Below, in pieces: positions 1,833 through 34,934 of a stretch of 35,842 nucleotides of DNA. A model generated the notes under the pieces. That model saw only the letters and a list, made by a program, of their open reading frames with translations, searched no databases and was not told the origin of the DNA. The stretch spans positions 1-35,842 of the forward strand of contig JAGLTQ010000061.1 of the NCBI GenBank assembly GCA_023135195.1. The letters are read 5' to 3'. The position numbers were made by a program, and so were the translations under genes. Within the stretch, counting starts at the first letter, position 1. Every line of letters begins with the position of its first letter. Source of the DNA: Gammaproteobacteria bacterium (GTDB taxonomy: Bacteria; Pseudomonadota; Gammaproteobacteria; UBA6429; Thiohalophilaceae).

Positions 1833-2390
1833 ATGAAAGTATGTATTGTTTCAGATAGTCACGATAATCGATTTTTGCTTGCTGCTGCAGTAGAAGATGC
1901 TAAAGCACGCGGTGCAGAAGCGGTTATTCACTGTGGTGATGTGGTTGCCCCCACGACATTGAAAATATTAAACCCTATCGGTTTACCGGTGCACGTGATT
2001 CATGGCAACAATACCGGCGATATGTTCAGCCTTTCCCGTCTCTCGCACAATGAAGACAGCGTGGTGCAATATTATGGTCAGGATGCAGGTATTGAGTTGG
2101 CAAAGAAAAAAATCTTCATGGTTCACTACCCTCATTATGCCGAAGCGATGGCCACCACAGGCGATTGGGATATTGTTTGTTGTGGGCATGACCACAAAGC
2201 CAGTGTACGAGATATTAAAAACATGAAGAATGGGACAACACTCTATGTTAATCCCGGTACCGTGGGTGGTGTTGGCGCAGCTCCGACCTATGTGATGGCA
2301 GACCTTGAAACAATGGAGTTTGAAATTATTGCAGTGCCCGTGGACGAGAAGCTGAGCTATAACAAGACTTCTGTTTCAAAACACAACTAA
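1833..2390 (+). CDS. YfcE/MJ0936-family metallophosphoesterase (phosphodiesterase)
   Basis: Predicted cytoplasmic metal-dependent phosphodiesterase of the calcineurin-like superfamily, 185 residues, the usual size of the single-domain YfcE/VPS29-like group. All metal-binding motifs are visible: D8-x-H10 (SDSH), G35-D36, G58-N59-N60, H98 in MVHYPHY, and G118-H-D-H121. The closing VNPGT-GG block is also characteristic. The physiological substrate is unknown for this family; members cleave bis-pNPP in vitro. There is no good Shine-Dalgarno before the ATG, only an A-rich stretch. It follows ppa on the same strand and ends against a large palindrome. Confidence 0.9.
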   Translation: MKVCIVSDSHDNRFLLAAAVEDAKARGAEAVIHCGDVVAPTTLKILNPIGLPVHVIHGNNTGDMFSLSRLSHNEDSVVQYYGQDAGIELAKKKIFMVHYPHYAEAMATTGDWDIVCCGHDHKASVRDIKNMKNGTTLYVNPGTVGGVGAAPTYVMADLETMEFEIIAVPVDEKLSYNKTSVSKHN

Positions 2391-2400
2391 AGTAAAAAAT

Positions 2401-2464
2401 GAACCACGGGGCACACAGGGAAAATAATAAAAAATCTCCGTCTACCCAGTGTTCCCCGTGGCTC
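2401..2464. repeat. Palindromic hairpin repeat, copy 1 (CCACGGGG family), possible bidirectional terminator
   Basis: The first 20 bases (GAACCACGGGGCACACAGGG) pair with the last 20 (reverse complement GAGCCACGGGGAACACTGGG) at 17 of 20 positions, around an A/T-rich loop. It sits exactly between the convergent ends of the phosphodiesterase gene and moaE, where a bidirectional terminator is expected. A related copy lies at 5595-5667. Confidence 0.75.
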
Positions 2465-2477
2465 AATGTTTTTTATA

Positions 2478-2906
2478 TCAAGTGTTTTTCTCAACCCAAC
2501 GAGTTTGTTCAACCAAACTTTCTTTTTTCCAAAACGGTGCGCGTAATTTAAGCTCTTCCATTAAGTACCGACTCGCATCAAAAGCTTCTGCCCGATGTGC
2601 TGACCAGACCGCCACTAATACAATCGGATCATTGGGCAACATTTCCCCGACCCGATGAACAATTAACGAATCCAGAATATCCCATTTATCAGCAGCTTCT
2701 TCACTAATTTTTTGCAGGTACTTTTCAGTCATCCCAGGATAATGCTCTAACGACATTGCCGATACATCATCGCCCTGATTAAACTCACGCATACTGCCAA
2801 CAAATACCGCGGTAGCACCGTATTTTCCAGAAAAACCAGCTTCAGCCTGATACTCGAGCAACCGTTGATACGGTTCAAATGAAGAGTCTTTTATTTCAAT
2901 TAGCAT
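2478..2906 (-). CDS. moaE: Molybdopterin synthase catalytic subunit MoaE
   Basis: Large subunit of molybdopterin synthase. It transfers sulfur from the MoaD thiocarboxylate to precursor Z (cPMP), making the dithiolene of molybdopterin. The product is 142 residues, close to E. coli MoaE (150). I chose the ATG at 2904-2906 (MLIEIKDSSF), 4 nt after the moaD stop. A longer in-frame start at 2981 would overlap moaD and add 25 residues of non-homologous sequence. Visible family blocks are VGSMREFNQGD-VSAMSLEHYPGM near the N-terminus, HRVGEM, and the C-terminal HRAEAFDASRYLMEELK followed by PFWKKE, which holds the active-site lysines. It is translationally coupled behind moaD. Confidence 0.96.
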   Translation of the reverse strand: MLIEIKDSSFEPYQRLLEYQAEAGFSGKYGATAVFVGSMREFNQGDDVSAMSLEHYPGMTEKYLQKISEEAADKWDILDSLIVHRVGEMLPNDPIVLVAVWSAHRAEAFDASRYLMEELKLRAPFWKKESLVEQTRWVEKNT

Positions 2907-2910
2907 GTCT

Positions 2911-3153
2911 CTAACCACCCGTAACAGGAGGAAAAAAGGCGACCTCGTCACCCGCTTTAATCGGGTGAGATGCTTCAACATAATCCATATTGACAGCCAT
3001 TAACGTATTTTCTGGCATGGCCATATTATTTGTTGCCTTGTTCCAGGCTTCGATAACTGTTTTTGCATCTGTATCGCTCGTCTCGGCTTCACCTTGACCA
3101 ACATGTTCACGTAAACTGGCAAAAAATTTTATTTTGATTACAGCATTCGACAT
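2911..3153 (-). CDS. moaD: Molybdopterin synthase sulfur-carrier subunit MoaD
   Basis: Ubiquitin-like sulfur carrier of 80 residues, the normal MoaD size. It ends in the diagnostic Gly-Gly tail (FFPPVTGG), which is adenylated and converted to a thiocarboxylate before docking into MoaE. The N-terminal strand IKIKFFASLRE and the segment NTLMAVNMDYV match the fold. It forms a two-gene operon with moaE and is divergent from moaC across 109 bp, which should contain both promoters. moaA and moaB are not in the window. Confidence 0.94.
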   Translation of the reverse strand: MSNAVIKIKFFASLREHVGQGEAETSDTDAKTVIEAWNKATNNMAMPENTLMAVNMDYVEASHPIKAGDEVAFFPPVTGG

Positions 3154-3262
3154 AAAAAGTACTTTCTCTGATTTGCGTATTTAATCCTGCAAGCCTATCA
3201 TGATTTAACCTTTGAATGAACCAACCACAATAAACGTAAGCTGTTGATATATAAGGACTAGC

Positions 3263-3736
3263 ATGTCGGAATTAACCCATTTTAATGAACAAGGCAAAGC
3301 CCACATGGTGGATGTCGGAGAGAAAAGTGAAACTCATCGCATCGCTATTTGTGAAGGCACCATCACCATGAAAGCCGAAACGCTGGAAAAAATATTACAG
3401 GGCGATCATAAAAAAGGAGATGTGCTTGGTATCGCGCGTATAGCCGGAATTATGGCTTCAAAAAGAACCGCAGATTTAATTCCATTATGTCACCCACTCA
3501 TGCTCACCCATGTTGACCTTGATTTTATTCCTGATACAAAAAACAACAGCATTTACTGTACTTGCCAGGTAGAAACACGAGGCCAGACAGGGGTTGAAAT
3601 GGAGGCTCTCACAGCCATTCAGGTGGCTTTATTGACGATATATGACATGTGTAAAGCGGTCGACCGGGGCATGACGATGGGTAATATCCGGCTAATCGAG
3701 AAAAAAGGCGGGAAATCTGGCCATTGGCAAGCCTAA
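3263..3736 (+). CDS. moaC: Cyclic pyranopterin monophosphate synthase MoaC
   Basis: Second enzyme of molybdenum cofactor synthesis, converting the MoaA product 3',8-cH2GTP to cPMP. The 157-residue protein shows the whole conserved core: [20 protein letters not shown] (from K50), the CHPLM segment at 76-80, EME at 112-114, and D128 and K131 in [11 protein letters not shown], which correspond to catalytic residues of E. coli MoaC. The C-terminus IEKKGGKSG is typical. An AAGGA ribosome-binding site lies 5 nt before the ATG. The gene is divergent from moaDE, so the cofactor genes are split into two transcripts here. Confidence 0.97.
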
Positions 3737-3863
3737 TACAAATAAGCCTTATTAATTTATCAGGAATTGTTAACTTCGTTAACTTTTACGTCTACTATTA
3801 GTGCATGATTGGTACATTGTTTCATTTCTGTCACTTTTAACATGTAGTTTAGGAGTTAGAGTT

Positions 3864-4868
3864 ATGCGCTATCGTTTTACCCCCAAAACAGTCTCCCTAT
3901 TTCAAATTTTCTTCGCCTTTTTATTAACACTATCACTGGGCCTGCCTTTGTCAGCAAGTCAAGGTGACTGGGTTCTGGTCGAACGTTTTGAGAAACAACT
4001 GACTGCAGCAAAGGCCGGTAAGCTTAAAGCAATGTATGACGTTGGCAGACTCTATGAACGTGGTCGTGGTGTAGACATCGATTTAGCCGAAGCAACAAAG
4101 TGGTATAAAAAGGCCTCAAGTTCAGGACAGCATAGTGCGCAGGCAAGACTAGGCATTATGTATTTTGAAGGGCGTGGCGTTAAACAAAATTATAAAAAAG
4201 CCCTTAAACTCTTAAATACTGCAGCAAAAAATAAAGTACCCAGCGCACAATTCCAACTCGCAAATATGTATGAACTCGGGACGGGCGTTCCGCAGAATTT
4301 AAAGAAAGCCATTTATTGGTATAGCGAGTCAGATAAATACGGTTACTATCTTGCCAAAAATAGAATTACACGTCTAAAAAACTTACCTGCTTCAACATCA
4401 GGAACAGTTAACCGCACCACCGCAAAACCAATTCGCGCAGCAACTCGTAGAGCAACACCAACCGCTATCCTTAGCACCATAACAAATGGCCAATGGTTCA
4501 AACGAAAAAAAGCGGTAGGCTACTTACCCTCAAATATTACAAATTGTGTAAATGGATCAGAGAGCACACTACACTGCATCTCTACCTCACAAGAACGTAG
4601 CACGGGTACTGAACTGATTAACTACTATATTGAAAGTCGCATCAGGGTAAAAAACAAATCATCTTTCGATATTGTCTATTCCAACAATGTATTAAGCATC
4701 GAATCATTATCTATTGAAGATGGTGATGGTAATCTTATCGAAAAAACAGCCTCTCGCATTAAAAAAGGCAAGCAGGGTAAGAAGCGAAAACTATCCTGCC
4801 GTATTAAAAATAAAAATATTATTTCCTGCACTAAAAACAGCTCTTCCTTTGATTTAGTAAGTCGTTAA
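3864..4868 (+). CDS. Exported Sel1-repeat protein with unknown C-terminal domain
   Basis: Predicted periplasmic or secreted protein of 334 residues. I prefer the ATG at 3864, which has TAGGAG about 7 nt upstream and directly begins a signal peptide (MRYRFTPK, hydrophobic stretch, cleavage near LSA-SQ). The in-frame ATG at 3801 would add 21 residues in front of that signal. Residues about 50-165 hold three Sel1-type repeats (for example YDVGRLYERGRGV and LGIMYFEGRGVKQN). After a Thr/Ala/Arg-rich linker, the last 120 residues form a predicted beta-rich domain with four cysteines in two pairs (NCVN...HCIS and SCRI...SCTK) that I do not recognise. Sel1 repeats usually mediate protein contacts. 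No function is assigned. Confidence 0.85.
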   Translation: MRYRFTPKTVSLFQIFFAFLLTLSLGLPLSASQGDWVLVERFEKQLTAAKAGKLKAMYDVGRLYERGRGVDIDLAEATKWYKKASSSGQHSAQARLGIMYFEGRGVKQNYKKALKLLNTAAKNKVPSAQFQLANMYELGTGVPQNLKKAIYWYSESDKYGYYLAKNRITRLKNLPASTSGTVNRTTAKPIRAATRRATPTAILSTITNGQWFKRKKAVGYLPSNITNCVNGSESTLHCISTSQERSTGTELINYYIESRIRVKNKSSFDIVYSNNVLSIESLSIEDGDGNLIEKTASRIKKGKQGKKRKLSCRIKNKNIISCTKNSSSFDLVSR

Positions 4869-4905
4869 ACTTTTTAAATAACAATGACTGACATACAATA
4901 GCGGT

Positions 4906-5583
4906 ATGTCAGTCCCCCCTCCTACACCACCAAAGAGTGAAGAAGAATTATTAAGTCGCGCAAGAAATCTTGCTGGTTTAACACTGCAACAGTTGTCCAG
5001 CAACTTTAATCAACCTTTACCAAAAGATATTCGGCATGCAAAAGGCTGGATGGGGCAACTGCTTGAAACAAGTTTAGGCGCCACTGCATCATCCCGAGCC
5101 GAACCTGACTTTCAACTTATTCAGGTTGAACTTAAAACGTTACCACTTACTCCATCAGGCAAGCCAAAAGAATCTACCTATGTTTGCACCGTTCCCTTAA
5201 CCAAATCACATGAACAGGAATGGGCGACATCCTGGCTAAAAAGAAAGTTGCAGCGCGTACTTTGGTTGCCCATAGAAGCAGATAAACGCATTCCTCTGGC
5301 TGAACGTCATATTGGTAATGCTATTTTGTGGAGTCCAAATGAAGCCGAAGCAACACAACTGCAACAGGATTGGGAAGAATTAATGGAGCTCGTTTGTCTT
5401 GGCAGACTTGAAGAGATAACATCTCACATGGGACGATATTTACAAATTCGTCCTAAAGGTGCAAATTCAAAATCGTTAACAACAACACTTGATGACGAAG
5501 GCAACACTATTCAAACTTTGCCTCGCGGATTTTATTTACGACCGGAGTTTACTCAGCAGATTATTCAAAATAATTACGCATAA
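4906..5583 (+). CDS. mutH: DNA mismatch repair endonuclease MutH
   Basis: Methyl-directed mismatch repair endonuclease that nicks the unmethylated strand at hemimethylated GATC once activated by MutS and MutL. The 225-residue product is collinear with E. coli MutH (229). The PD-(D/E)xK-type catalytic residues are present: E54 in GQLLETSLGA, D68 in EPDF, and E75 and K77 in QVELKTLP. Conserved downstream blocks KRVLWLPIE, LWSPNE, DWEELMELV and YLQIRPKGANSK, and the C-terminal LPRGFYLRPEF, are all intact. This implies Dam methylation and a gammaproteobacterial host. Only a weak ribosome-binding site (AGCGG) precedes the ATG. Confidence 0.96.
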   Translation: MSVPPPTPPKSEEELLSRARNLAGLTLQQLSSNFNQPLPKDIRHAKGWMGQLLETSLGATASSRAEPDFQLIQVELKTLPLTPSGKPKESTYVCTVPLTKSHEQEWATSWLKRKLQRVLWLPIEADKRIPLAERHIGNAILWSPNEAEATQLQQDWEELMELVCLGRLEEITSHMGRYLQIRPKGANSKSLTTTLDDEGNTIQTLPRGFYLRPEFTQQIIQNNYA

Positions 5584-20737: not shown

Positions 20738-22684
20738 CTATAATTTTTCCTGCAAAAACTTAGCTAATTCAACAATGGTCTGATACTCAAACAAATCGAC
20801 CACATCAACTTTATCTGGATATCTATCATCTATTTGTTGATGAATTTCCGCCAGGGTTAGAGAACTTATACCAGAGTCAAAGAAGTTATCATTAACACCT
20901 AAGGTACTACCTTCAATAACATCATCACATATATCTTTTAGTTCTTGCTGTAATGGCGATAATGATTCATCTGAAGATGTTTCTTTAGGTTTATTTAACG
21001 CATTTATTTCATTTAAGACATCAGCATATTCACCTTCCGCATAGGCATCCCCTAAAATACGACGTTGTACTTTTCCACTGGTTGTTTTAGGAATGCGTTT
21101 AACCGGAATAACATGGTCAATTTCAAGTCCTGACTGTTCATTTAAAACATGAGACGCTTGTTTAGCTAAAGCTATGAAGTCTTTAATGTCTGCACGATAT
21201 AAAATAAAGATAATGAGTTCATCTCGCTGTAATTTTTCATTCCATACGCCGTAAACAACAACTTTACCTAATTCCAGACCTTCTAGATTTAATAATAAAT
21301 CTTCCAGATCGTGCGGGTAATAATTTAAACCGTTAGCAAAAATAATATCTTTTGCTCGACCGGTAATAATAAGTTCACCATTGTGAATAAAACCTAAATC
21401 TCCGGTATCTAACCAGTTATCTTTTGATATAGCCGCATGGTTAGCTTCTTCATTTTTATAATAGCCTTGAGTTACGTTGGAGCCACTAATTTGAATACTG
21501 CCAACGGTATCATCAGCTAATACCTTTTCTTTATCTGCGATACGCACCAAACAATCTAAAACAGGTTTGCCAACAATGGCGAAACCTAATGCATCTTTAT
21601 TATCAGCATCGACAAATTTAATTTTTTCACTGACATTTAAACTATGACGATCAACATGTACAGCACGGTATTCTTCACCAGCAACTGGGAATGAAACCGC
21701 TAATGTTGCTTCTGCCATACCATACACAGTGAACATGGTTTCACGCTTTAAACCATACTCTTTCATTGTGTCTAAAAAGGTATCACACAAATCAATCGAG
21801 ATAGGTTCTGCACCGTTGTAGATAAGGCGAACGGAAGAGAGATTAACGTCTTCTATTGGTTTTTTACTTAAAGCTTTTAAAAAGTGTTTGTAACCAAAGT
21901 TAGGTGAACATAAAACGGTGGCTTTTTTCTCGCTAACTTTTTGCATCCATAATAAAGGACGGCGACTAAATAAATCCGTTGCCATCAAACACTGATTCAT
22001 ACGGTAAGCAATCATGTTTAAATGAAAACCAATTAACCCCATATCATGCGTTAAAGGCATCCAGCTAAAGCTGGTATCATTTTCGTTATACAAACCACCT
22101 TCGCCAATCGCATTAAGGTTAGTCATAATGTTTTTATGTGTCAGCATGACACCTTTTGGATCACTGGTAGAACCGGATGAAAACTGAATAAAGGCCAGAT
22201 CATCTGGCGCAGGTTCATGAACCTCACCTTTTTCTTTAGATGTTATATCTGCTACTAATAACGTTTTTTCTTTAATGAGCGTATAAGCCGCAGATAGTTT
22301 ATTATCTTCTGCATACTGTTGAAGCCGTTCTACATTATCTTCAGTTGTATATAAATGAGGACGTTCAAGCTTTTCAAAAACTTTAAATAATTTTGAACGG
22401 TGCTCATCACTGATACCAACAGCAATGGGGACTGGAATAATGCCACCTAAAATACAGGCCCAGTAAATATCAATAAATTCTTCATTACTGCGTAAGAAAA
22501 TAATGCATTCATCACCCGGCTTTAAACCACGTTGTTGTAGTGCATGAAGTTTATTTAAAGCACGTTCATATAAATCAGCATAGGTAATGATGACTTCTTT
22601 ATCTTTGGCTTCAATAAAAGTTATAGTACGGTCAGTGCACGCTTGCTTTTGCAAGGTTTCGACCAGGGTTGAGAATGTAATCAT
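20738..22684 (-). CDS. Fatty-acyl-AMP ligase fused to a C-terminal acyl carrier domain
   Basis: A 648-residue cytoplasmic two-domain protein. Residues 1-555 form an ANL-family ligase: P-loop FSSGSTSDPKG (168-178), WMPLTHDMGLIG typical of FAAL enzymes, YGMAEAT (321-327), WLDTGDLG (424-431), hinge region after GRAKDIIF, and Lys538 in TTSGKVQR. Residues about 572-648 form a carrier domain whose phosphopantetheine serine is S608 in DSGISSLTL. It should activate a fatty acid as acyl-AMP and load it onto its own carrier arm, the usual entry step of lipopeptide or polyketide routes. It lies 12 nt after the P450 gene, in one transcript. No ketosynthase, condensation or thioesterase domain is in the window. 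Confidence 0.93.
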   Translation of the reverse strand: MITFSTLVETLQKQACTDRTITFIEAKDKEVIITYADLYERALNKLHALQQRGLKPGDECIIFLRSNEEFIDIYWACILGGIIPVPIAVGISDEHRSKLFKVFEKLERPHLYTTEDNVERLQQYAEDNKLSAAYTLIKEKTLLVADITSKEKGEVHEPAPDDLAFIQFSSGSTSDPKGVMLTHKNIMTNLNAIGEGGLYNENDTSFSWMPLTHDMGLIGFHLNMIAYRMNQCLMATDLFSRRPLLWMQKVSEKKATVLCSPNFGYKHFLKALSKKPIEDVNLSSVRLIYNGAEPISIDLCDTFLDTMKEYGLKRETMFTVYGMAEATLAVSFPVAGEEYRAVHVDRHSLNVSEKIKFVDADNKDALGFAIVGKPVLDCLVRIADKEKVLADDTVGSIQISGSNVTQGYYKNEEANHAAISKDNWLDTGDLGFIHNGELIITGRAKDIIFANGLNYYPHDLEDLLLNLEGLELGKVVVYGVWNEKLQRDELIIFILYRADIKDFIALAKQASHVLNEQSGLEIDHVIPVKRIPKTTSGKVQRRILGDAYAEGEYADVLNEINALNKPKETSSDESLSPLQQELKDICDDVIEGSTLGVNDNFFDSGISSLTLAEIHQQIDDRYPDKVDVVDLFEYQTIVELAKFLQEKL

Positions 22685-22696
22685 AGATTTAGTTTC

Positions 22697-24013
22697 TTAT
22701 CTTTTGCTAAGTTTCATCATAATGCTGTTTTTGCTACGCAAGTTTACCTGGGGATCGAGTTCAACACCCTTTTCATCCGCAACATATTCAAGTTTAAATT
22801 TTTTCGCCATTGTGCCTAAATGAATTTGCATTTCGACAATACTAAAATAATCACCAATGCAACGACGTGGCCCGGCTGAAAAGGGAATAAAGGCAAACTT
22901 GTGGCGTTTTTTAATTTCTTCTGGCAAAAAACGATCGGGCTTGAACGCTTCAGGCTCATCCCAAAAATCCGGATGGCGATGTAAATAGTACGGTGCAAAG
23001 AAAATATTTGTTCCGGCAGGAATATCATAACCACACACTTTATCATCTACGATAGCAGTGCGTGAATACAACCAAACAGGAGGGTATAAACGTAGGGCTT
23101 CTTCAATTACCTGACGACTAAAAGGCATATTCCCCACTTCTTCAAAGGTCGGAATATCACCAGAAATAACCTTATCTGCTTCATCCTGAAGTTTTTTCTC
23201 TTCGGCTGGATTTTGTGAGAGTAAATACCACGCCCAGTTAAGCGTTGTTGCTCCAGTTTCGTGTCCGGCAATAATCAGCGTCATGACTTCATCGATAATT
23301 TCCTTATCAGTCATGCCTTCGCCGGTTTCTTTATCCTTCGTTTCCATAAAGGCTTCAAGAAAATCATCATAACGCGTCGAGGACTCACGACGTTCATCCA
23401 TAAGTTGTTGCACTAATGATTTTAAGGCCCGGAATTTCAGGACAAATTGCATATCACGAGCTAAATCATAAGTTAGAATCTCAAAGGGATTCTTTCCTTC
23501 TTGTTCAATCAACTTGTCCATGTCGTCGCTAAACAAACAGCGCAGAATAATTTCAAGCGAGAGTTCACTGGTTTCACTGGAGACATCCAGCAGTTCACTC
23601 TTTTCTGCTTTTTCCGTCCAGCGTTGCAGCCAGACTTGATTGGCCTTTTGCATCTTCTTCGCCAGGCCATCAATACACTTGCGGCTAAAGGCAGGTTGAA
23701 TCAAGCGACGCTGTCTGCGCCAAAATGCGCCATCACTGACAATAATGCCATTACCTAACAGCATTTTTACCCGCTCAAAACCGGGCCCTTTTTTATAATT
23801 TTCATGGTTTTTGACAAGAATTGCTTTTACAGCATCCGGGGCATTGATCAAAATGGTATTATTGCCCCTTGAAACAGGCTTGATCAGGGTAAAGTTGCCA
23901 TATTCTGCAATATAATCCGCAATTATCGGGAAAGATTCATCCGTGGTATTAATGTCATACGGCGTTTCCGGACCAGCCGGTAAATTGAGTGATTTAGTAT
24001 CTATTGAGGTCAT
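22697..24013 (-). CDS. Cytochrome P450
   Basis: A 438-residue soluble heme-thiolate monooxygenase. The I-helix oxygen-activation motif is AGHETG (249-254), the ExxR pair is E305-R308 in EEALRLYPP, the meander has [10 protein letters not shown], and the heme loop [10 protein letters not shown] (378-387) carries the axial Cys385. The sequence style ([32 protein letters not shown]) resembles the CYP4/CYP102-like bacterial groups that oxidise fatty chains, but I do not assign a family. No ferredoxin or reductase gene is nearby. It is first in a two-gene unit with the ligase and is divergent from the PPTase across only 22 bp, so promoters must reach into the coding regions. The ribosome-binding site is weak. 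Confidence 0.95.
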
Positions 24014-24035
24014 TTTTAAGAACTTTTAGGACAAT

Positions 24036-24716
24036 ATGTCAGTAGCGATACTATATTATAAAGTCAGTCAGGAAAGAATAAGTTCAGCCAAACTATCTGA
24101 ACAAATTGCCAACTGGATTGCTGAATTACCTGTACAAAAACAACAACAGGTTAAAAAAATACGCCAGCAAAACGATCAGGTATTATCTTTAGCAGGCCTG
24201 CAATTACTTAAATTAGGCATGGCTGAATTTTCTGATATTCCTTTTTCCTTATCTCAGCTCGAGTTTCCTAAGCAGGCAAAACCCTTCATTACTGCTGATA
24301 TTGATTTCAATATTTCTCACTCTGGTGATATCGTTTGTTGCATTATATCCGATACCGTCAAAGTGGGTATCGATATTGAGTTACAACGGGAAGTGAAGCC
24401 GGCAACACTAAAAAAGTTTTTAACTGAAACGCCCAACGCCGCAACGAGCGGTAATACTGAAAATAATATGCACGCGTTTTTCAATCTCTGGACAAAAAAT
24501 GAAGCCATTATAAAAGCGGCTAATTTTGGTTCTATTTATAATATGCATGATATTAAACACGAAGCCCATGGTGGCCACTACCAAAATCATTTTTGGTATA
24601 GCTATCCTATTGAGCTGGTTTCTGCGAATGACAATAAAGAATATACTTGCCATATGGCCTGCTCTGAAAAGATCACAGCACAAGATATTAAACTTAAACA
24701 AATTGATACATTATAA
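24036..24716 (+). CDS. Sfp-type 4'-phosphopantetheinyl transferase
   Basis: A 226-residue enzyme that moves the phosphopantetheine arm of CoA onto a carrier-protein serine. Diagnostic motifs are FNISHSGD (91-98), the Mg-binding GIDIE with D113 and E115, and FFNLWTKNEAIIKA (148-161) with E156 and K160. The size fits Sfp/EntD-type enzymes rather than the about 120-residue AcpS. Its most obvious client is the carrier domain of the ligase encoded next door. AGGA lies 4 nt before the ATG. It is divergent from the P450 gene and followed 14 nt later by the acyltransferase gene. Confidence 0.93.
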   Translation: MSVAILYYKVSQERISSAKLSEQIANWIAELPVQKQQQVKKIRQQNDQVLSLAGLQLLKLGMAEFSDIPFSLSQLEFPKQAKPFITADIDFNISHSGDIVCCIISDTVKVGIDIELQREVKPATLKKFLTETPNAATSGNTENNMHAFFNLWTKNEAIIKAANFGSIYNMHDIKHEAHGGHYQNHFWYSYPIELVSANDNKEYTCHMACSEKITAQDIKLKQIDTL

Positions 24717-25431: not shown

Positions 25432-26823
25432 TCAACCAGCAAGTTCTATACGTACTTGCTCCAGTATATTTTTCATATGCATAGAGTCTTGCTGAATTTT
25501 AGTAAACTCATCAACGGATAAGGGTTTACTGAAAAGGAAACCCTGAATTGTTTTACAGCCTAACGCATGTAAGTAAGCCAGCTCTTGTGCGGTCTCAACA
25601 CCTTCGGCAACAACATCTAAACGTAAGCTATGTGATAAAGCCATAATAGCAGTCACAATGGCAGCATTATCACCACCGCTTCTATCTTGTACGTTGGTAA
25701 TAAAAGAACGATCAATTTTCAATGTGTCGATAGGGAATTTTTTTAGATAACTTAAAGAAGAATAACCGGTACCAAAATCATCTATTGATATAGCAACGCC
25801 CATTTTTTTAATTTCATATAACACATCAATATTTTTTGTTACATCGTCCATCAAGCAACTTTCTGTTAGCTCAACGTCAAGATAATCAGCAGAAAGCCCG
25901 GTATCTTTTAATGCCAGAGCAATGCGCTCAACAAAATCACCTTGTTTAAATTGTACGCTTGAAACATTAACTGAAACCCGAAGCGGTTCCAGCCCTTGAT
26001 CTTGCCATAATTTATTCAAACGACATGACTCTCGTAATACCCAGTCACCGGCTTCAACAATCATCCCGCTTTCTTCCAGCAAAGGAATAAATTCAAGTGG
26101 AGAAACAATACCGCGTTCAGGATGAAGCCAACGAATTAATGCTTCCATACCTTTAATATTACCAGTGGCCGCATCTACCTTAGGTTGAAAATATAAAACA
26201 AACTCTCCATTCTCTAATGCTTTACGTAAATCATATTCTTTTCTTAAGCGTTTAGAGTTATCAACATTCATTTCGCTATTATAATAACGATGGACATTGC
26301 CACCTGCCTGCTTGGCATTGTCTAATGCCAAACTAGCATAGTGACTTAATTCATCGACACTGCCCTGATCAGTCGGGTACACACAAATGCCATAGCTGAT
26401 TTTTAAAATAATATTTTCACCCGCAACAGAAAATGGCAGCCTCATCCCCTTCATAATTCGCTGCAAAGCTTTATCTACTTCTTCGCCACGCTCAATGAAG
26501 TTCATAATCAAACCAAAGCCGCTGCCACCAAGACGTGCAATAATGTCACTGTCCCGGGTTAAATCAACCAGGCGATTAGCTGTTTCAGTTATTAACGTAT
26601 CACCATTTTTATAACCGTACTGCTGATTAACTTCAGATAATTTCTCGATATCCAGATTCACGACCGCAAGCACCTTCTCATGCCTTTTGACCATTGAAAG
26701 AGCGTAATCCAGGTGTTCCATAAACAGCGAATGCGTGGGGAGATGCGTTAAATAATCATGTAGCTTGTCTCCAAATTTCACCTCTGCTGTAGCAAGTGAA
26801 TTTTGTCTAATGAAACTAATCAT
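25432..26823 (-). CDS. GGDEF/EAL protein with degenerate GGDEF and intact EAL (c-di-GMP phosphodiesterase)
   Basis: A 463-residue product if read from the ATG at 26821-26823, which has AGGA 6 nt upstream. The GGDEF site is degenerate (GGSGF, 99-103), so cyclase activity is unlikely, but the inhibitory-site motif RDSD (90-93) five residues before it is kept. The EAL domain has E227-A-L, NVSSVQF, ELTESCLMDD, the SIDDFGTGYSSL loop, KIDRSFI and VVAEGVET, so it should hydrolyse c-di-GMP. As read, the protein has no membrane segment. In the same frame, 168 nt of upstream sequence encode two hydrophobic helices broken by one TAA, so the gene is probably a truncated form of a membrane protein of about 519 residues. 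Confidence 0.92.
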   Translation of the reverse strand: MISFIRQNSLATAEVKFGDKLHDYLTHLPTHSLFMEHLDYALSMVKRHEKVLAVVNLDIEKLSEVNQQYGYKNGDTLITETANRLVDLTRDSDIIARLGGSGFGLIMNFIERGEEVDKALQRIMKGMRLPFSVAGENIILKISYGICVYPTDQGSVDELSHYASLALDNAKQAGGNVHRYYNSEMNVDNSKRLRKEYDLRKALENGEFVLYFQPKVDAATGNIKGMEALIRWLHPERGIVSPLEFIPLLEESGMIVEAGDWVLRESCRLNKLWQDQGLEPLRVSVNVSSVQFKQGDFVERIALALKDTGLSADYLDVELTESCLMDDVTKNIDVLYEIKKMGVAISIDDFGTGYSSLSYLKKFPIDTLKIDRSFITNVQDRSGGDNAAIVTAIMALSHSLRLDVVAEGVETAQELAYLHALGCKTIQGFLFSKPLSVDEFTKIQQDSMHMKNILEQVRIELAG

Positions 26824-26991
26824 TGAGAGTCCTGCTAACGCCAGAAAGGCCAGAGCTTAATAAATAATTGAAAGAGAGAGATATCCCAACATCTGTAACC
26901 CGCTCACAAGCAAAACAGAGAGAGATAATATTAAGAGCAGGAAAGTAAAACGACTCGACTGAGAAAGCGTAATTTTAGATTGTTTTAACAT
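26824..26991 (-). pseudogene. Disrupted N-terminal membrane anchor of the GGDEF/EAL gene (in-frame TAA)
   Basis: Reading upstream in the EAL frame from 26823 gives ALAFLALAGLS, then a TAA at 26857-26859, then 44 codons back to an ATG at 26989-26991 that begins MLKQSKITLSQSSRFTFLLL. The residues on both sides of the stop form two adjacent hydrophobic helices, as in two-helix membrane anchors of GGDEF/EAL proteins. AGGTGA lies 11 nt before the upstream ATG. A single base change to a sense codon would rebuild the full protein. Reinitiation at 26823 or readthrough is possible. Confidence 0.7.
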
Positions 26992-27157: not shown

Positions 27158-27622
27158 TTACACCACTTCTGCATTTGGTAGATGTTCACGTAACAGATGG
27201 AATAGCTCAGCGCGATCAACGGGTTTAGCTAAAAATCCATTCGCACCTACCCGTAAGCCCCAAAATTTCTCGGTTGCCTGCTCATTGCCACTAATAATAA
27301 CAATGGGGATATCTTGTGTATCAGTATCTTTACGTAAAATTCGTGTCGCCTGAAAACCATTTAAGCCGGGCATGATGATATCCATTAGAATTAAGTCTGG
27401 CTGATGCAGTTTAGCCATTGCAATGCCTTCTTCACCATCTTCTGCGCTAAGAATATCGTATCCGGTTGGCGCTAATGTTTTCTTTAATACCGCGATTGCC
27501 GTCCGTGAATCATCAACAATCAGGATCGTTGCATTATCAGGTAGTTTTATCCGTTCTTCATCGCGCCTTTCATCGGACGTATTTTCAGCAGCAGAAAAAA
27601 ATGATCTCAGGTTAAAAGCCAT
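27158..27622 (-). CDS. CheY-like response regulator (PilG/PilH-like), receiver domain only
   Basis: A 154-residue single-receiver protein with a charged N-terminal extension of about 30 residues. Phosphorylation-site features are complete: D37-D38 in LIVDDSR, phosphoacceptor D81 in LILMDIIMPG, the T/S site in VIISGNEQ, and K133 in LAKPVDR. The style (ILIVDDSRTAIAVLKKTLAPTG) resembles twitching-motility and PilH-type regulators. It has no output domain, so it signals through protein contact. No cognate kinase is adjacent. It lies 166 bp before the disrupted GGDEF/EAL gene in the same direction. Confidence 0.9.
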   Translation of the reverse strand: MAFNLRSFFSAAENTSDERRDEERIKLPDNATILIVDDSRTAIAVLKKTLAPTGYDILSAEDGEEGIAMAKLHQPDLILMDIIMPGLNGFQATRILRKDTDTQDIPIVIISGNEQATEKFWGLRVGANGFLAKPVDRAELFHLLREHLPNAEVV

Positions 27623-30527: not shown

Positions 30528-30956
30528 ATGAATACTAAAAACAACAACATTCCGTATATAAATAATAAAGACAAACTCATTCTTTTTGATGGCATATGCA
30601 AGTTATGTAATGCATGGTGCCGATTTATTATTCGCTACGACAAAAATCATATTTTCAAATTAGCTTCAATGCAGTCAGAAAAAGGACAGGCTATTCTTAA
30701 AAATTTAGAACTGCCTACCGAACATTTTGAAACCATGTTATATATTGAACATAATATTATTTACGAAAAGAGCAATGCATTTATAAAAATAGTAAAACAT
30801 CTGCCCTTACCAATAAAACTACTGTTTTTATTAAAGATTATTCCTGGGCTATTTCGAGATTTCATATATGATCGTATAGCACTTAATCGATATAAAATGT
30901 TTGGGGAATATAACAAATGCACTCTGCCTACAGATGATGATAATCGTTATTTATGA
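30528..30956 (+). CDS. DCC family thiol-disulfide oxidoreductase-like protein (DUF393)
   Basis: A 142-residue protein with the family-defining FDGICKLCNAWCRFIIRYD (C24-x-x-C27) and the following LASMQSEKGQAIL segment. The C-terminal LLKIIPGLFRDFIYDRIALN and a YNKCTLP ending also fit. The fold is thioredoxin-like, so a redox role is likely but not proven. It overlaps the next gene by 4 nt (ATGA). DCC proteins commonly occur next to or fused with HTTM-type membrane proteins, and one lies two genes downstream. Confidence 0.92.
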   Translation: MNTKNNNIPYINNKDKLILFDGICKLCNAWCRFIIRYDKNHIFKLASMQSEKGQAILKNLELPTEHFETMLYIEHNIIYEKSNAFIKIVKHLPLPIKLLFLLKIIPGLFRDFIYDRIALNRYKMFGEYNKCTLPTDDDNRYL

Positions 30957-33737: not shown

Positions 33738-34934
33738 TCAACCTGGTCTGCCATCTATTCGTGGTCTGATCCACATAGGAGTATAGATGACAAAGAAAAT
33801 AATAAATGCGGACACCCACAGCCAACCCGAGAACTGAATAAAAAACAGATAAAGATGAGGCATAAACATTGGCATAATGACTCTGGTTATAGCTGCAATG
33901 TTGATTAAAATAAATGCTAACGTCATCCAGCTACTTAATACCATTTCTCGACCTGTATGCCCGATACTAACGCGAGCCATCATACCGAGAGTCATAATGC
34001 CGATACCACCGACAGTAAAAGCATGAAAAGCGAATAAACTTTCATTGATATCAAAAATCACCCAGCCTTTGATCACAAATCCAAACACGATCCAGAGATA
34101 CGCAATCTGTAATATCCAGACAAGCGGTACCTGCCAGATTTTATTTGAGTACCAACCTGCAACTCGAATGAAGTTAGTAACAGCAGCAAACATCGCTAGA
34201 TAGCCAATTATTACACTATCCGAAAAAAATACTTCTCCTAGCACCATTAAAATCACACTAAGAGATGATAAACGCTCTATCCAAACCCACGTTTTTGTCG
34301 TTACACCAACTACCCCACGTTCGGTAAAAAAGGGGATAACGCGACCACCCATAATAACGATTAACAATATAACCAGATAAATCATTAATCGACTTCCGAG
34401 CACAATAGAAATATCAATCATACCTAGCGCACTTAAATGAACCATTAAGTTGGCGGCTGCCATGGTGAGTAAAAGAGGAACAAATACAAAGTTCGACCAC
34501 TGCTTTACTTTAAAAACGGGTATGGCAATTAAAAGCGCGACTAAAGGTAAAAAGGCAAGATCAACTGTAGCGATAATCCAATGGGGAAGTTCAGGTATAA
34601 ATGGCGCAAAACGACCTAACAAGAAGACAACCGATAATAATACCAGTTGTTTGCCATTGATCATTTTCATACCGGTCCAGTTACCTGCGGCGGTTAACAA
34701 AAAACCTGCAATCACTGCAACGGCATAACCAAATAACATTTCATGAGCATGCCAACCTGCGGGCGTGTAGTATCCTGAAATAGTTATTTTTCCAGATAAC
34801 TCATAAAGCCATAAAACAATAAGTGCAAAAGATGAAAAAGCGGCGAAGAGAAAAAATGGGCGGAAGCCTAGAGCAAAAAGCGCAAAAGATTTTTCATTCC
34901 CTTTCTCTTTAGGATCTTCAATATTCATAACCAT
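33738..34934 (-). CDS. nnrS: NnrS family membrane protein
   Basis: A 398-residue polytopic inner-membrane protein with about 12 hydrophobic helices. The family pattern is clear: ALGFRPFFLFAAFSSFALIV, the GWHAHEMLFGYAVAVIAGFL block with conserved histidines, LLTAAGNWTG, and GGRVIPFFTERG. NnrS is a heme- and copper-containing protein linked to tolerance of nitric oxide and other nitrosative stress. AAGGA lies 7 nt before the ATG at 34932-34934; a second ATG two codons later is less well placed. No denitrification gene is adjacent here. Confidence 0.94.
   Translation of the reverse strand: MVMNIEDPKEKGNEKSFALFALGFRPFFLFAAFSSFALIVLWLYELSGKITISGYYTPAGWHAHEMLFGYAVAVIAGFLLTAAGNWTGMKMINGKQLVLLSVVFLLGRFAPFIPELPHWIIATVDLAFLPLVALLIAIPVFKVKQWSNFVFVPLLLTMAAANLMVHLSALGMIDISIVLGSRLMIYLVILLIVIMGGRVIPFFTERGVVGVTTKTWVWIERLSSLSVILMVLGEVFFSDSVIIGYLAMFAAVTNFIRVAGWYSNKIWQVPLVWILQIAYLWIVFGFVIKGWVIFDINESLFAFHAFTVGGIGIMTLGMMARVSIGHTGREMVLSSWMTLAFILINIAAITRVIMPMFMPHLYLFFIQFSGWLWVSAFIIFFVIYTPMWIRPRIDGRPG

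Follow-up and report, generated by a model that had tools for sequence, protein, structure and literature searches.

A conserved two-helix membrane anchor is cut off a GGDEF-EAL protein by a single in-frame TAA in the draft genome GCA_023135195.1, and we give about an even chance (roughly 50%) to the reading that initiation at an ATG shortly behind this stop yields a soluble c-di-GMP phosphodiesterase. The window, by which we mean the whole stretch of DNA analysed, comprises positions 1-35,842 of contig JAGLTQ010000061.1, and the gene under study lies on its minus strand, as do all features of it given below. In favour of a soluble enzyme we count the intact orthologues in related genomes, the standing of the TAA as the sole internal stop in 87 genes, an ATG and the A of an AGGA motif that occur only in the window, the intact EAL motifs with 2:23 codon changes in EAL, anchorless homologues in the genus g12, and the precedent of Shigella flexneri dgcQ. 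Against it we count the draft state of the assembly, a higher ratio of nonsynonymous to synonymous changes (N:S), predicted structure at the restart, and the drop in reinitiation reported for E. coli (PMC10666635).

In the scenario that we favour, the ancestral protein was a membrane-anchored c-di-GMP phosphodiesterase, encoded beside a receiver protein, in which GGDEF was degenerate and EAL active, and one substitution in the window lineage would have turned codon 45, in the second transmembrane helix, into TAA. Translation would now start at ATG 26823, for the most part without help from the 44-codon frame before it, and yield a soluble phosphodiesterase of 463 aa that would have lost its place at the membrane and any input passed on by the anchor. 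As for the peptide of 44 aa, it would probably be a by-product that is degraded.

The interrupted frame and its membrane anchor

The frame spans 519 codons from ATG 26991 to the stop at 25434-25432, with one internal break. Opening at ATG 26991-26989, 44 codons precede the TAA (26860-26991; MLKQSKITLSQSSRFTFLLLILSLSVLLVSGLQMLGYLSLSIIY) and correspond, as judged from alignment, hydropathy and a structure model, to helix 1 of the ancestral anchor (residues ~13-34) and the very beginning of its helix 2. The TAA itself, at codon 45 (26857-26859), aligns with a Tyr codon (TAT) in the two closest relatives, and a 33-nt in-frame remnant of helix 2 (26824-26856; ALAFLALAGLS) leads from it to the restart codon. 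The 44 codons, the TAA and the 11 codons of the remnant make up the 56 codons of 26824-26991, and on re-reading the sequence both these coordinates and the single TAA in an EAL frame starting with ATG, as given in the initial annotation, proved correct.

Kyte-Doolittle hydropathy reveals two hydrophobic stretches in the N-terminal part, and a structure model of the intact orthologue in genome G001 places helices at residues 13-34 and 42-68 (local pLDDT about 72-86, in a model whose mean pLDDT is 48.5 and whose quality is low except at the N-terminus and in parts of EAL). Because this model puts helix 2 at 42-68, the TAA is predicted to fall at its start.

That a two-helix anchor had been cut off a GGDEF/EAL protein was the central claim of the initial annotation, which proposed a search of close relatives for an uninterrupted gene. 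Such a gene was found in four genomes of the same genus (G001, G003, G004 and G005), in all of which the frame is open at the stop position and the N-terminal hydrophobic hairpin aligns without a frame change; the anchor is thus real and conserved, and the relatives neither share the stop nor lack conservation upstream of it. G001 and G003 are the two closest, each about 95% identical to the post-stop part. Since frame and hydrophobic pattern are kept in all four, the upstream part is not a non-coding 5' leader. A TAA detected by tblastn in G005 was rejected as a shared stop, as it sits upstream of the start of the G005 gene; the orthologue in G002 runs off the end of its contig. No relative was found in viral contigs.

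The predicted enzyme behind the stop and its putative start

The 463-aa frame behind the stop (25432-26823), identified from the ORF and Pfam matches, encodes a predicted soluble GGDEF-EAL protein. Its GGDEF domain (26296-26763; PF00990, E = 1.5e-32) keeps RxxD as RDSD and is degenerate: the cyclase motif GG(D/E)EF is replaced by GGSGF in the window, G001, G003 and G004, by GGSNF in G005 and by SGSEF in G006. The EAL domain (25522-26232; PF00563, E = 9.5e-73) passes the Pfam cut-off of 31.3 bits with a score of 244.9, and alignment to Pseudomonas MorA (PDB 4rnh) recovers all of the catalytic motifs EAL, N, ExxxS, DDFGTG, KIDR, EGVE and QG, in the strings EALIRW, SVNVSS, ELTES, DDFGTGYSSL, LKIDRSF, VAEGVET and QGFLFSKP. 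MorA is the best solved-structure match over GGDEF and EAL together (E = 5.7e-104), with the same EAL catalytic motifs, but has GGDEF where the window protein has the degenerate GGSGF. The best NCBIfam match is the DibA phosphodiesterase (NF045675; residues 22-439), at 387.4 bits against an equivalog cut-off of 980, with a model that is longer at the N-terminus; at this score the protein does not belong to DibA. Because the EAL motifs are intact and the GGDEF motif degenerate, established family knowledge predicts a c-di-GMP phosphodiesterase without cyclase activity, and the phosphodiesterase proposed in the initial annotation is credible.

The putative restart codon, ATG 26821-26823 (Met57 of the ancestral frame), reads ATT in both G001 and G003 and follows, by 6 nt, an AGGA ribosome-binding-like site (26830-26833) whose first A also occurs only in the window (GCA, against GCC or GCT in G001 and G003). 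AGGA-type sites at a distance of 4-10 nt accompany 4.4% of internal ATGs and 26% of first-ATG starts in the window's genome, and from a random codon an in-frame ATG with such a site is met within 15 codons in 1.5% of cases (3.2% for any start codon). Since an ATG with a site that near follows only 1.5% of codons, initiation at ATG 26823 to give the soluble 463-aa phosphodiesterase is plausible. A start lying just downstream may also be why the break is tolerated, but this argument is post hoc and of modest weight. The site had been described as a good one, and it is indeed present, but its strength is only moderate by anti-SD pairing energy (-4.0, equalled or bettered by 32% of first-ATG starts and 13% of internal ATGs). 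The restart also lies in a 68-nt stretch predicted to form a local structure of -12.9 kcal/mol.

In E. coli reporter pairs, reinitiation was reduced by 80-90% or abolished at a 38-nt gap (PMC10666635). Set against this fall, the 33-nt gap between stop and start would be too long for efficient translational coupling, which makes it more likely that initiation at ATG 26823 is mostly independent of the upstream 44-codon frame. A weak AGGA site combined with poor reinitiation would mean that little protein is made.

A close precedent is dgcQ of Shigella flexneri 2457T, which has a premature stop at aa 56 and a Met at 59; the degenerate c-di-GMP genes of S. flexneri are intact in other Shigella species, and expression of dgcQ, dgcE and dgcN raised c-di-GMP despite their nonsense codons, with several products seen (PMC11327459). 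Like dgcQ, the window gene has one N-terminal nonsense codon with the catalytic domain still open after it, close relatives whose orthologues are intact, and an in-frame start soon after the stop (here the ATG with its AGGA, 33 nt past the TAA). Unlike in dgcQ, this restart ATG is itself lineage-specific, and whereas the dgcQ-type genes are experimentally tested cyclases with more than one product, the window gene encodes a predicted EAL phosphodiesterase whose GGDEF is degenerate. Its break is an event of the dgcQ type, here in a phosphodiesterase, and an ordinary strain-specific one of a kind already known from other bacteria. If the stop is real, the gene offers a small natural experiment on the role of the anchor in a degenerate-GGDEF/EAL phosphodiesterase, and it recalls what Shigella has already shown, namely that a c-di-GMP gene classed as a 'pseudogene' for a single stop may still give rise to a functional catalytic domain.

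Selection, assembly quality and competing explanations

Within EAL, the window branch carries 2 nonsynonymous and 23 synonymous unique codon changes, a constraint equal to that in the relatives. Over the whole post-restart part the N:S counts are 14:52 on the window branch and 3:43 and 5:42 on the other two (Fisher p = 0.035 against the pooled 8:85), with the excess mostly within GGDEF. As a recent stop would leave little trace, these counts do not distinguish a soluble enzyme that is being kept from an early pseudogene. The raised ratio could reflect early relaxation, in a gene with a genuine stop that yields scarcely any enzyme or none and whose downstream frame is simply too young to have decayed. 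We regard such an early pseudogene as unlikely, while placing it first among the alternatives. It would fit the instability of the locus in the genus, where G006 has lost EAL and G007 has no match, and one loss would be tolerable in a genome with 7 matches to the protein at E up to 1e-60; arguing against it are the absence of any second lesion in 463 codons, the intact EAL catalytic set and the window-only restart site, which would have to be an extra coincidence.

As a separate observation, the first 86 codons of the frame (26734-26991) show fewer synonymous differences from G001 than the remainder (7/86 codons against 112/434, Fisher 2e-4), a depletion that was not reproduced against G003.

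The TAA might instead be an error of sequencing or assembly, or come from a minority strain whose variant entered the consensus, with the organism's own gene intact, which we hold to be slightly more improbable than a pseudogene. The assembly is indeed a draft (232 contigs, 86% complete, 5.5% contamination), the difference is a single base, the relatives are all intact, and in G001, a draft of the same genus, two genes of the neighbourhood match in two frames. When ORFs from 755 kb of G003 were matched to some 516 kb of the window's genome at an orthologue identity of at least 78%, however, the codon-45 TAA was the only internal stop among 87 genes with close orthologues (26,659 aligned aa), and an assembly with one internal stop in 87 compared genes has no litter of false stops. 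The change is, moreover, a substitution and not a change in homopolymer length, and a random error would have had to fall, with a chance of 1.5-3%, right beside the window-only ATG and AGGA. We read the codon-45 TAA as a lineage-specific nonsense substitution in one genome, a consensus error being less likely. A candidate second internal stop in the window's assembly (L055) was rejected as a C-terminal end difference.

The reverse comparison found 2/90 genes disrupted in G003. An apparent short insertion lies in the G003 locus L074 (14840-15950), where the match to an ORF that is uninterrupted in the window's genome (L108, 18293-19199) falls into two parts in different frames, separated by additional sequence and a stop.

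It is doubtful that the change was selected, as a recent relocalisation of c-di-GMP breakdown from membrane-bound to soluble through a window-only stop and a start with its own site, before the anchor remnant decayed. Far less probable is a functionally split gene, in which a stable one-pass membrane peptide of 44 aa and the soluble enzyme would act as two parts: the initial annotation had raised this option, and the peptide does keep helix 1 and its own start, but the arrangement occurs in one genome only, helix 2 would be truncated a few residues in according to the model, and a separate gene for the peptide is absent from every relative, so that the proposal is not upheld. Readthrough or suppression of the stop is more improbable still: no known recoding signal was recognised at the stop, and no suppressor tRNA was seen in the roughly 18% of the genome that was scanned (weak evidence), even though in Shigella a full-length band did appear for dgcQ and dgcN in spite of their stops (PMC11327459).

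Neighbourhood and homologues

A stand-alone receiver (response regulator), assigned by domain match and synteny, is encoded upstream on the same strand (27158-27622). It keeps this place next to the gene in G001, G003, G004, G005 and G006, and receiver and phosphodiesterase may be functionally linked. Beside the same receiver in G006 (L050, 8613-9365), the orthologue has lost EAL, leaving the two helices and the degenerate GGDEF (SGSEF).

In genus g12, anchorless homologues of ~454 aa, 46-48% identical, adjoin NnrS, a gene for which is also present in the window (33738-34934); no receiver was found beside these homologues in the g12 DNA examined. As putative orthologues, they indicate that a soluble form exists in nature.

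Elsewhere in the neighbourhood, two stretches of the G001 locus L046, 4241-4605 and 2988-3423, are homologous to the window's ion-channel ORF and to ORF 30528-30956, respectively, and each matches in two frames, apparent frameshifts in the G001 draft assembly. Positions 20738-24716 of the window may form a small biosynthetic cluster, with adjoining genes for an AMP-binding enzyme with a carrier domain, a cytochrome P450 and a phosphopantetheinyl transferase. A 7.6-kb contig of the window's genome (L111, G000:C40) carries 13 tandem tRNA genes at 2147-5173.
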